The notes under the pieces were generated by a model. That model saw only the letters and a program-made list of their open reading frames with translations, searched no databases and was not told where the DNA came from. Both the position numbers and the translations under genes were made by a program. Below are positions 12,230 to 47,600 of a DNA stretch of 64,000 bases, piece after piece. How positions within the stretch are numbered: position 1 is the first letter of the stretch; each line of letters opens with the position of its first letter. The stretch is from contig NZ_PJJL01000068.1 of NCBI RefSeq assembly GCF_002929505.1, positions 1 to 64,000 on the forward strand, read 5' to 3'. This stretch comes from Cryobacterium sp. Y57 (GTDB taxonomy: Bacteria; Actinomycetota; Actinomycetes; Actinomycetales; Microbacteriaceae).

Positions 12230-12330
12230 AGGCGCATAACTCCTGCAATTCGTTCGAGGCACGACGAGGCTTCCGCGTGATCACGCAGGAGCCCACGTAG
12301 CGGCACGCAGATTGCAGGAGTTATGCGCCT
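12230..12330. repeat. Inverted-repeat-bounded element, copy 1
   Basis: The left arm AGGCGCATAACTCCTGCAAT (12230-12249) and its exact reverse complement (12311-12330) enclose 61 bp. The interior includes the perfect palindrome GCGTGATCACGC at 12275-12286. A second element with the same 15-bp arm core and exactly the same core spacing lies at 47508-47600. Each arm reads outward as GCAGGAGTTATG. Confidence 0.9.
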
Positions 12331-12331
12331 C

Positions 12332-12373
12332 GCCAGCCGACCAGCCAGCCAGCCGACCAGCCAGCCGAGCAGA
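12332..12373. repeat. Short 16-bp direct repeat
   Basis: CAGCCGACCAGCCAGC occurs twice in tandem, followed by a partial third copy, immediately right of the inverted-repeat element. Confidence 0.7.
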
Positions 12374-12457
12374 CGCCCAACAGCAGCCGAGCAGAGACCG
12401 GGCAGTAGCCACGTAGGCGAAAGCCACGTGGGTGCCCACCCGGCCGGCGCCGGATGG

Positions 12458-33129: not shown

Positions 33130-34038
33130 ATGGAACTGCGTCAACTTGAACACTTCGTTACGGTCGCCGAGGAACGTCACTTCACCCGTGCCGCTGACCT
33201 CTTACAGATCTCGCAGTCCGGCCTCTCGGCTTCGATTCGCGCCCTCGAAGGTGAACTCGGGATGTCGCTTTTCGCCCGCAGCACTCGACGGGTCGAACTG
33301 ACCGCGGCCGGACAGGCGCTTCTGGCAGACGCCCTGCGCACGCTGGCCAGCGCCGCCGCGGCGCAGAATGCGGTCGCGGCCGTTCGCGGCGTCATGCGTG
33401 GCCGGCTCACCGTCGGGGCCGAACCGTGCGCCGGCGCAATCGACCTGCCCGCCGAGCTGGCGCAGTTCCGCACGGTCAACCGTGGTGTCGAGGTCAGACT
33501 GCGCTACGCGGGTTCGGTCGACCTCATCGAGAGCGTCGCAAGCGGGCGAGCGGATATCGCGGTCGTCGTCGAAACCGGTCCCACCCCGCCCGGGGTTACC
33601 CTGCACGAGCTCGGCACGCAGAGGCTCGTCGTACTGGCCCACCCCGACCATCCGCTGGCCGGCCGATCCTCGATCACCCTGGAGTCTTTGCGCACCGAGT
33701 CGCTGATCGGTTTTCAGTCCGGTTGGGCCGCGCACGTGCTCGCCCGACGGGCCTGTGCGGCAGCCGGATTCGACTATCGGGCGGCGATGGAGGTCAACGA
33801 CGTGCATCCTCTACTGGATCTGGTGGGCTACAACCTCGGTGTCGCCATTGTTCCGGCGAGCTTCGCCGCCAAGCGTCCCGAAACCCTGCGCACGATCGAA
33901 CTGCCCGGCGGCCTGCCGACGTGGAGTGTCGCGGTCGCCGTTTCCGACGAGCCGAGCCCGGCCGCCAGAGCGTTTTTGGATCAGCTCTTGACAAACGTGG
34001 CGGTTCAGGTTCCGGGCAGTTCGGTCGACGCCAGCTGA
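33130..34038 (+). CDS. LysR-family transcriptional regulator
   Basis: A 302-residue regulator: the N-terminal winged HTH (M-E-L-R-Q-L-E-H-F-V-T-V-A-E-E-R-H-F-T-R-A-A, then S-Q-S-G-L-S-A-S-I) is intact, and residues from about 90 form the type 2 periplasmic-binding-like effector domain. It diverges from the phosphoketolase gene, the usual LysR arrangement with a controlled target, so regulation of the xfp-pta-ackA cluster is likely but not shown. Its stop lies inside an inverted repeat that may be a terminator. Confidence 0.92.
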   Translation: MELRQLEHFVTVAEERHFTRAADLLQISQSGLSASIRALEGELGMSLFARSTRRVELTAAGQALLADALRTLASAAAAQNAVAAVRGVMRGRLTVGAEPCAGAIDLPAELAQFRTVNRGVEVRLRYAGSVDLIESVASGRADIAVVVETGPTPPGVTLHELGTQRLVVLAHPDHPLAGRSSITLESLRTESLIGFQSGWAAHVLARRACAAAGFDYRAAMEVNDVHPLLDLVGYNLGVAIVPASFAAKRPETLRTIELPGGLPTWSVAVAVSDEPSPAARAFLDQLLTNVAVQVPGSSVDAS

Positions 34039-34047
34039 ACCGCCACG
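33996..34047. terminator. Inverted repeat across the LysR stop codon
   Basis: CGTGGCGGTTCAG (33996-34008) and its exact reverse complement (34035-34047) are separated by 26 bases; the TGA stop lies in the right arm. It sits at a convergent gene boundary and could terminate in both directions, although the loop is long and no T-run follows. Confidence 0.4.
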
Positions 34048-34061
34048 CTTATTGCTGGCTG

Positions 34062-36173: not shown

Positions 36174-36269
36174 TAAAAAAGACTCCTCGCGCACCCGCCA
36201 GAGCCCGGTTACCCTTGCTACGTTTCCGTCCTGGGGGAATTGGCCAAGGTGGCGCCACGCGAGGAGCCG
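36174..36269 (-). ncRNA. ffs: Small SRP RNA (4.5S) with terminator
   Basis: On the minus strand the RNA has a terminal stem CTCCTCGCG (36266-36258) pairing perfectly with CGCGAGGAG (36191-36183). The apical domain has CCCCCAGG, then a stem ACG-GAAA-CGT with a GNRA tetraloop, then AGCAAGGG. The C-A-G-G / A-G-C-A pair around a GNRA loop is the conserved Ffh-binding domain of signal recognition particle RNA. A T-run (plus-strand A-run at 36175-36180) follows directly and terminates transcription. In actinobacteria this gene often sits near dnaX and tRNA-Ser; here dnaX is 9 kb away. Confidence 0.92.
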
Positions 36270-36275
36270 AATCTT

Positions 36276-36392: not shown

Positions 36393-36480
36393 GGAGAATT
36401 CGCCTAGTGGCCTATGGCGCACGCTTGGAAAGCGTGTTGGGTGAAAGCCCTCGGGGGTTCGAATCCCCCATTCTCCGCCA
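36393..36480 (+). tRNA. tRNA-Ser (anticodon GGA)
   Basis: An 88-nt type II tRNA with acceptor GGAGAAT/ATTCTCC, a D-arm, anticodon stem CACGC/GCGTG with loop TTGGAAA (anticodon GGA at 36427-36429, reads TCC/TCT), a long variable arm TGGG...CCCT, T-arm GGGGG-TTCGAAT-CCCCC, discriminator G and an encoded CCA. Two further copies of its 3' end follow immediately. Confidence 0.98.
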
Positions 36481-36602
36481 GATAAGCAAACCGCAGCGTG
36501 TTGGGTGACGCACAGCCCCATTTGCGGGGTTCGAATCCCCCATTCTCCGCCAGATCAGCACACCGCCCCACTTACGGGGTTCGAATCCCCCGTTCTCCGC
36601 CA
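36454..36602 (+). repeat. Tandem copies of the tRNA-Ser 3' end (attachment-site-like)
   Basis: The 27-nt tRNA 3' end starting GGGGTTCGAATCCCCC and ending in CCGCCA occurs at 36454-36480 (in the tRNA), 36526-36552 (identical) and 36576-36602 (one change). Each is followed by GAT[A/C]AGCA. Copy 2 is preceded by AGCGTGTTGGGTGA, also tRNA-derived, and a similar fragment follows copy 3. Such arrays arise from repeated integration and loss of elements that use a tRNA 3' end as attB. Confidence 0.85.
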
Positions 36603-36637
36603 GATCAGCAAACGCAGCGTGCTGGGTGACGCGCAGG

Positions 36638-42677: not shown

Positions 42678-42697
42678 TATTTTCTCCGGGGGTCGGT

Positions 42698-42713
42698 ACC
42701 CAAACGATTGGGT
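42698..42713. promoter_or_regulatory. LacI-type operator 1
   Basis: ACCCAAACGATTGGGT is the exact reverse complement of the site at 42786-42801. It has outer arms ACCCAA/TTGGGT around a CG centre, as expected for LacI-family operators. It lies 20 bp before the asparaginase-like start, so repressor bound here should block the leftward operon. Confidence 0.85.
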
Positions 42714-42733
42714 TTCTTGATGTAAGAGTAGAT

Positions 42734-42747
42734 ACCCAATGTTTCGG
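42734..42747. promoter_or_regulatory. Possible third, degenerate LacI operator
   Basis: ACCCAATGTTTCGG matches the left arm of the two strong operators perfectly and the right arm partly. It is off-phase relative to them and may be weak or chance. Confidence 0.4.
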
Positions 42748-42785
42748 CCGACTGCACGCGTCATTGCGGGTATGTAACGCTCATT

Positions 42786-42801
42786 ACCCAATCGTTTGGG
42801 T
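42786..42801. promoter_or_regulatory. LacI-type operator 2, overlapping the regulator promoter
   Basis: ACCCAATCGTTTGGGT, 88 bp from operator 1 (centre to centre). Its last six bases TTGGGT (42796-42801) also form a -35-like hexamer, followed after 16 bp by TATAGA (42818-42823). This implies autorepression of the LacI gene, and the spacing allows DNA looping between the two operators. Confidence 0.85.
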
Positions 42802-42891
42802 AGTGAGGTTGTAAAACTATAGAATGAGATCGACAGGCAAGTCAAGCTTCGTATCCGGCTTTCTCGGGTCACGGAAACTGGAGACAGCGAC

Positions 42892-47382: not shown

Positions 47383-47422
47383 AAATGGCACGATAGCACC
47401 GCATGTGCGGTTTCAACCCATC

Positions 47423-47503
47423 CGGCTGGCCCCGAAACCTTTCCCAGCTGTCCCGGAAACCACGGCCGGCTGTCCCGGAAACCACTACCGGCTGTCCCGC
47501 GCC
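47423..47503. repeat. 22-bp tandem repeat (x3.7)
   Basis: Units 47423-47444, 47445-47466 and 47467-47488 and a partial unit 47489-47503 share the pattern CGGCTGTCCCGGAAACCACT with decreasing divergence towards the right. The array abuts the second inverted-repeat element and lies in the promoter gap of the mod operon. Confidence 0.85.
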
Positions 47504-47600
47504 AGGCGCATAACTCCTGCAAATTGCTCAGCCCGGCTGGTGCGAACCGCTCAAATAGGGGCAGAGTGACGGCGGCGGCGACAGATTGCAGGAGTTATGC
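47504..47600. repeat. Inverted-repeat-bounded element, copy 2
   Basis: GCATAACTCCTGCAA (47508-47522) and its exact reverse complement (47586-47600) enclose 63 bp. The same 15-bp arms at 12234-12248 and 12312-12326 also enclose exactly 63 bp. The interiors of the two elements match at only about one third of positions, including a central CCGC and a final CAGA at the same offsets. It lies between the divergent mod operon and moeB. Confidence 0.9.

Follow-up and report, generated by a model that had tools for sequence, protein, structure and literature searches.

REPINs and their RAYT genes are the described system that most resembles the one reported here. According to the available portion of PMC3116915, a REPIN has two conserved inverted ends and a less conserved spacer of set length, lies outside genes, and the RAYT gene is flanked by its own elements; excerpts on REPIN/RAYT also place a GTAG or CGTC tag on the small palindromes. 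AbiEi is described in part of PMC7319586 as binding inverted repeats and is proposed there to bend DNA. The lengths of Paramecium internal eliminated sequences follow the helical repeat, which the excerpted text of PMC3464196 reads as end-to-end looping.

The elements analyzed here occur in a window of 64,000 nucleotides from Cryobacterium sp. Y57 and share with REPIN/RAYT the inverted conserved ends, the less conserved spacer of set length, the dispersal outside genes and a single-copy partner gene flanked by its own elements. In contrast to RAYT, a Y1/HUH tyrosine transposase, the flanked gene encodes an AbiEi-like and a Vsr-like part; the arm CATAACTCCTGCAA carries neither a GTAG nor a CGTC tag; the 90/91-bp elements of Cryobacterium lack the hairpin covariation that is present in the 54-bp elements of genome G1025; and Cryobacterium lengths move in helical steps, with spacers nearly unrelated between copies. 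Since enzyme, tags and, in Cryobacterium, hairpin do not fit, we regard the system as a REPIN/RAYT-like kind assembled from unrelated parts rather than as a member, and a class of its own is possibly deserved. The AbiEi antitoxins (6y8q; Rv2827c, 1zel) share the fold of the N-terminal two-thirds of the partner protein, where this region is joined to a predicted nuclease and goes with a dispersed element family, whereas Vsr and I-Bth0305I share the fold of its C-terminal domain, together with the DUF559/REase_MTES_1575 family match, and differ in that the predicted nuclease is here an AbiEi-like fusion tied to an element family. Paramecium eliminated sequences are likewise short and of helically spaced length, but they are eukaryotic and excised by a domesticated piggyBac transposase, and serve as an analogy only. 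MITEs, too, are short non-coding inverted-repeat elements; here, however, the interiors are not shared and target duplication was not seen in the cases inspected. No earlier description of the gene–element pairing was found in literature titles and abstracts, a coverage outside which most subscription journals fall.

Two copies lie in the window. In copy 1 (12230..12330), the left arm at 12234..12248 on the forward strand and the right arm at 12312..12326 on the reverse strand match the 15-base sequence GCATAACTCCTGCAA and its reverse complement exactly, and the perfect arms reach 20 bases (12230-12249/12311-12330). Copy 2 (47508..47600) carries equally exact arms at 47508..47522 (forward) and 47586..47600 (reverse), which are perfect over 15 bases only. 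Both show the geometry given in the earlier note, 63 bp between the arms and 93 bp overall, and both measure 91 bp from CATAAC to GTTATG. The interiors are identical at 23 of 63 positions, close to the claimed one third, and each holds the family centre in its middle, CCGCGTGATCACGCAGG at 12273..12289 in copy 1 and CCGCTCAAATAGGGG at 47547..47561 in copy 2. Of the two interior matches pointed out earlier, CCGC sits inside the motif at the centre of the 90-bp class. The CAGA coincidence is weak, since (C)AAA commonly precedes the right arm and CAGA is among its variants. Five arm matches with three or fewer mismatches were counted in the window, against a mean of 0.66 and a maximum of 3 in shuffles. 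Copy 1 has orthologous copies in G009, G020, G010 and G433 and none at that place in G036 and G018. At the place of copy 2, each of the seven further genomes in the syntenic set has an element, and it is absent or different in other genomes. Copy 1 is directly adjoined by tandem repeats of 12 and 16 bp (12332-12394), and copy 2 by a 22-bp tandem repeat of 3.5 copies (47422-47499), whose number and sequence vary between species at the same place.

That these two might be the only copies, and recent duplicates, is refuted by the source genome G000 (4.01 Mb, 73 contigs), in which 34 perfect matches to the 15-base arm were counted. The stretches fetched from it yield 28 paired elements, a count in which pairs with more degenerate arms may be missed; 26 of them measure 90 or 91 bp (CATAAC to GTTATG), one 79 bp and one 92 bp. 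Nor does spacing vary widely; where other copies differ, the difference is almost always close to one turn of the helix. The conserved ends and length and the drifting middle that the earlier note had described are borne out, as is the presence of many copies with set spacing. Of 60 relatives, counting G000 itself, 20 have exact-arm pairs; all 20 are Cryobacterium, the genus to which 37 of the 60 belong, and an order-wide sample of 396 genomes has the pattern only in its three Cryobacterium genomes. Among the matches listed in a scan of named genomes (at least 80 rows), nearly all are Cryobacterium; those from elsewhere come from a Rhodoglobus MAG (two rows), a Microbacteriaceae MAG (three), Lacisediminihabitans profunda (one) and a Bacteroidetes MAG (one). 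With a looser core, 1 to 31 pairs are present in 47 of 57 Cryobacterium genomes. A 100-bp arm pair also stands at L172 7753-7848, in a MAG labelled Bacteroidetes.

Gene context was assigned with a crude gene caller and places 157 of 179 elements between genes, a count that mixes in elements from other genera or a Bacteroidetes record. Of these intergenic elements, partly orthologous copies and so not independent, 59 lie in convergent, 77 in tandem and 21 in divergent gaps, against 108, 238 and 122 gaps longer than 90 bp (p 1.5e-4). The elements are enriched in convergent gaps and rarer in divergent ones, a placement that lends no support to the idea that the arms act as ribosome sites.

The partner gene of the source genome lies at G000:C66:56242-57180, on another contig than the window, and is surrounded by three elements. 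It is the sole DUF559 match and the sole protein match in G000; the A1 profile, built from 62 homologs, has three matches in this genome, two of them not shown. Pfam places DUF559 over its cut-off and REase_MTES_1575 and AbiEi_4 just under theirs. In an AlphaFold2 model with a mean pLDDT of 92, residues 196-296 align with 3hrl (Z 13.2), I-Bth0305I (Z 13.0) and Vsr (Z 10.8), residues 5-193 with AbiEi 6y8q (Z 8.4, rmsd 5.0 over 176; Foldseek E 3.3e-5), and the N-terminal two-thirds with Rv2827c (1zel; Z 6.2, rmsd 5.6 over 166). By this model, the protein is an AbiEi-like DNA-binding region (about 5-193) followed by a predicted Vsr/homing-endonuclease-like PD-(D/E)XK domain (about 196-296). Ten columns are invariant in the 62 homologs, including E201, Q218, D228, E238, D240, H245, D254 and R270, and we take the conserved acidic and histidine residues to correspond to the named PD-(D/E)XK catalytic motif. 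With Z about 6 to 8, Holliday resolvases, TnsA and VRR_NUC also match the fold; these matches were set aside, as they may reflect the shared core only. Homologs are encoded in 53 of 57 Cryobacterium genomes, in 138 of 199 genomes of the family and, by profile, in 159 of the 396 genomes sampled across the phylum.

At 62 of 77 homolog loci, an inverted repeat measuring 60-111 bp lies within about 600 bp, on both sides at 39, while the control rate elsewhere is 0.044 per 600 bp; no repeat is nearby at the other 15. These loci were chosen by protein likeness, 50 from Cryobacterium and 27 from other genera, with a few broken genes included. The arms go with the gene lineage, being CATAACTCCTGCAA in lineage A, GTGGCTAA(C/T)TCAGGA in B, GTTCCGAATTCAGGAG in C1, and others elsewhere. 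Arm likeness rises with protein likeness (Mantel rho 0.61 over 58 loci, with 0 of 999 permutations as high), also among pairs under 45% identity (rho 0.29). In count tests that ignore the relatedness of the genomes, A elements have a median of 17 in the 22 genomes with an A gene vs 3 in the 35 without (p 1.2e-6), B elements a median of 9 in 15 genomes with a B gene vs 0 in 42 without (p 1.9e-6), and the two crossed comparisons of counts with the other family's gene give p 1 and 0.98. Some genomes have A-pattern pairs despite having no A gene (G438 with 15, G007 with 11, G433 and G018 with 10 each); G006 and G001 have the gene and 0 exact-pattern pairs, and the repeat next to the G001 gene carries altered arms.

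The partner gene often stands between two elements spaced about 1.1 kb apart (L071, L082, L134, L143, L198), which makes such pairs a quick means of locating it. A draw of 29 loci across the phylum, for which no background was measured, has a repeat at 15 loci and on both sides at 12; five of the 29 come from the same family, at least three of those already counted, and the 24 outside the family have a repeat at 11 and on both sides at nine. At six out-of-family loci (L386, L395, L401, L402, L406, L410), the same arm is recognizable by eye on both sides. On these sequence comparisons, the pairing of gene and elements is well supported.

The A-family arm is CATAACTCCTGCAA, and the element arm is also given as CATAACTCCTGCAAATT. 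In a set of 211 distinct elements from Cryobacterium alone, with no more than five arm mismatches in total and lengths of 68-106 bp allowed, lengths fall at 78-79 (20 elements), 82 (1), 85 (1), 88-92 (186) and 101-102 bp (3). The off-step lengths of 82 and 85 bp belong to G029, where just a fragment of the A gene is present, and to G433, which lacks it. The B family, with arms TAA(C/T)TCAGGA, has lengths of 75-76 (6), 85-88 (61) and 96-98 bp (8) among the at least 75 elements listed. Both families are quantised in the same steps, in helical register. At one site, the element is 90 bp long in two species, and in a third an 11-bp insert at its centre extends it to 101 bp. Elements of the 90-bp class share a centre of roughly CC(C/G)CGnAATTnCG(C/G)GG (51 dissimilar elements), and in the 79-bp class (13 dissimilar elements) A/T-rich and G/C-rich steps alternate with a period of about 10 bp, a pattern expected of bendable DNA.

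Complementarity between the two halves of the interior is 0.290 vs 0.296 expected in the 90-bp class (112 elements) and 0.279 vs 0.306 in the 91-bp class (61 elements), with a slight excess in the 79-bp class (0.400 vs 0.351, sd 0.028, 20 elements). In the 90- and 91-bp classes, the halves of an element thus pair no better than halves drawn from different elements. The lack of covariation in the 90/91-bp elements argues for phased duplex DNA and not RNA, and from these alignments the Cryobacterium element would hardly be a hairpin or an RNA stem. The structured RNA that the earlier note had considered loses ground also in that Rfam, at gathering thresholds, gives only an SRP RNA and a tRNA in the window and no match on its elements. 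Integron attC sites seem unlikely, the family being dispersed and its ends not fitting the attC consensus.

Taking these observations together, we propose, with a probability of about 0.6, that every copy is a miniature inverted-repeat element, that its two arms serve as half-sites of a cognate AbiEi-Vsr-type nuclease encoded outside the window, and that the system works like REPIN/RAYT. The gene–element pairing, the change of the arms with the gene lineage and the helical register of the lengths can be read from the sequences themselves, as can the much smaller change of arms than of interiors at inherited places. The protein would bind the two arms on the same face of the helix, folding the DNA between them into a tight loop; we infer this binding and looping because AbiEi proteins bind inverted repeats and from the helical-register argument made for Paramecium. 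Less securely, nuclease action in the complex might let the element be copied or moved, by which gene and elements would be maintained jointly in the manner of RAYTs and REPINs, though by an unrelated enzyme. The element family also fits the paired binding site or recombination module that had been suggested for the two window copies. Against spread driven by the nuclease stand the slow turnover in Cryobacterium, the fact that no target duplication was seen in the cases inspected, the elements in genomes without the gene, and G006 and G001, which have the gene but no exact-pattern pair. A wider generalization, to which we give somewhat less than even odds, is that of an unnamed, widespread actinobacterial system whose helical-step duplex elements are spread by an AbiEi-Vsr nuclease in which neither a DDE nor a HUH domain is recognised. 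Each gene lineage would have its own arm code, and the elements would take the form of a hairpin in one lineage and of a looped duplex in another.

If true, the REPIN-RAYT alliance is not a one-off, and an unrelated enzyme family has built the same partnership of gene and element. Genes annotated only by DUF559 or AbiEi domains would gain a role, and unannotated intergenic repeats an explanation. The length classes would amount to a natural experiment in helical twist for short loops of DNA, and the many gene–arm pairs would be material for decoding protein–DNA recognition.

Cryobacterium elements mostly keep their places between species. Across 99 equal-length orthologous pairs (of 150), a set that includes 17 elements from other genera or a Bacteroidetes record, divergence is 2.5% in the arms, 30% in the interiors and 14% in aligned flanks, the arm value being biased low because the elements were found by their arms. 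This stability, together with the arm–interior difference, would suit a host function, in which the protein binds the elements for regulation, insulation between genes or chromosome organisation, the elements are immobile and the nuclease acts elsewhere. AbiEi relatives bind inverted repeats as repressors, according to the part of PMC7319586 at hand, and helical register suits repression loops as well. We nevertheless consider this explanation unlikely, since the elements avoid divergent gaps and favour convergent ones (p 1.5e-4), their number ranges from 0 to 31 within the genus, whole units are absent in close relatives, and G1025 holds amplified copies.

One such absence concerns a G020 element that is missing as a whole unit in G010, where the flanks are 97% and 94% identical and no target duplication is evident. 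Empty sites among the fetched loci came to five cases, mostly uninformative, and syntenic blocks were compared instead; six absent sites inspected retain no pair of arm remnants, the best right arm having 6 to 7 mismatches. Interiors align poorly between orthologs of 90 and 79 bp (three pairs) and of 89 and 79 bp (two pairs), so that replacement is likely rather than an indel. The interiors of non-homologous copies are nearly unrelated, with 74 of 18,388 pairs scoring at least 15 vs 0 of 2,781 shuffles, and some of the 74 may be unrecognised orthologs. By eye, arm decay in genomes without the gene follows no clear pattern. At places without the element, G018 and G034 carry a different near-perfect palindrome with arms GAGAGCGCAAAAAGTGCCCG, perhaps another element family.

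In the genus g190, which belongs to another taxonomic family, elements with arms AGCAGACnCAAA were found in 40 of 60 genomes, up to 48 per genome. In G1050, the gene is enclosed by two of them 1 kb apart; three element pairs tried likewise in G1025 enclose no partner gene. Of the 48 elements of G1025, 20 were fetched, and 17 picked by eye for their like interior show a mean difference of 15% (range 4 to 26%) and stand at unrelated places. Their flanks share only short matches, and the similarity ends just outside the arms at CG, which is present on both sides in 17 of the 20 elements and is indistinguishable from the palindrome. No target duplication of more than four bases was seen in the 20 elements. 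The 54-bp elements of G1025 covary between their halves (0.828 vs 0.651, sd 0.026, 18 elements), and the g190 lineage may therefore use a hairpin. Cryobacterium copies are mostly inherited in place, and amplification looks recent in G1025, a single genome from a different genus.

Conflict systems are known to contain AbiEi and Vsr-like domains (PMC3710099), which would accommodate a defence or addiction module whose nuclease attacks incoming DNA and whose chromosomal elements hold, titrate or mark the nuclease. Only the domains speak for this here, and no partner homolog was found on 72,556 plasmid and 50,697 phage records at E 1e-5; we regard it as improbable. Ordinary MITEs of a DDE-type transposase, standing beside the nuclease gene by chance, would also be short, dispersed inverted repeats that are present or absent as units, yet the arms track the nuclease lineage, interiors differ between copies and target duplication is absent in the cases inspected (one Cryobacterium site, 20 G1025 elements), which makes this origin very improbable. 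A structured RNA or transcription terminator, for which the arms could pair in any single strand, convergent gaps are enriched and the G1025 54-bp elements covary, is the least credible of all, given lengths that step by helical turns, Cryobacterium 90-/91-bp interiors with no excess complementarity (slight in the 79-bp class) and no Rfam gathering-threshold match on the window elements.

The window holds several other repeats. An imperfect inverted repeat of 106 bp at 42697-42802, TACCCAAACGATTGGG ... CCCAATCGTTTGGGTA, is one of only four such in the window and could belong to a different element family. Near the end of a reading frame, at 33991-34052, lies a 62-bp inverted repeat that has unrelated arms and 16 paired positions and may be a terminator. 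The SRP RNA is located at 36175-36271, and just after the tRNA at 36393-36477 a 50-bp unit resembling a tRNA gene 3' end occurs twice (36511-36610). Near the start of the window, a perfect 8-bp tandem repeat, GGCTACGC, runs for 12.9 copies at 105-207.
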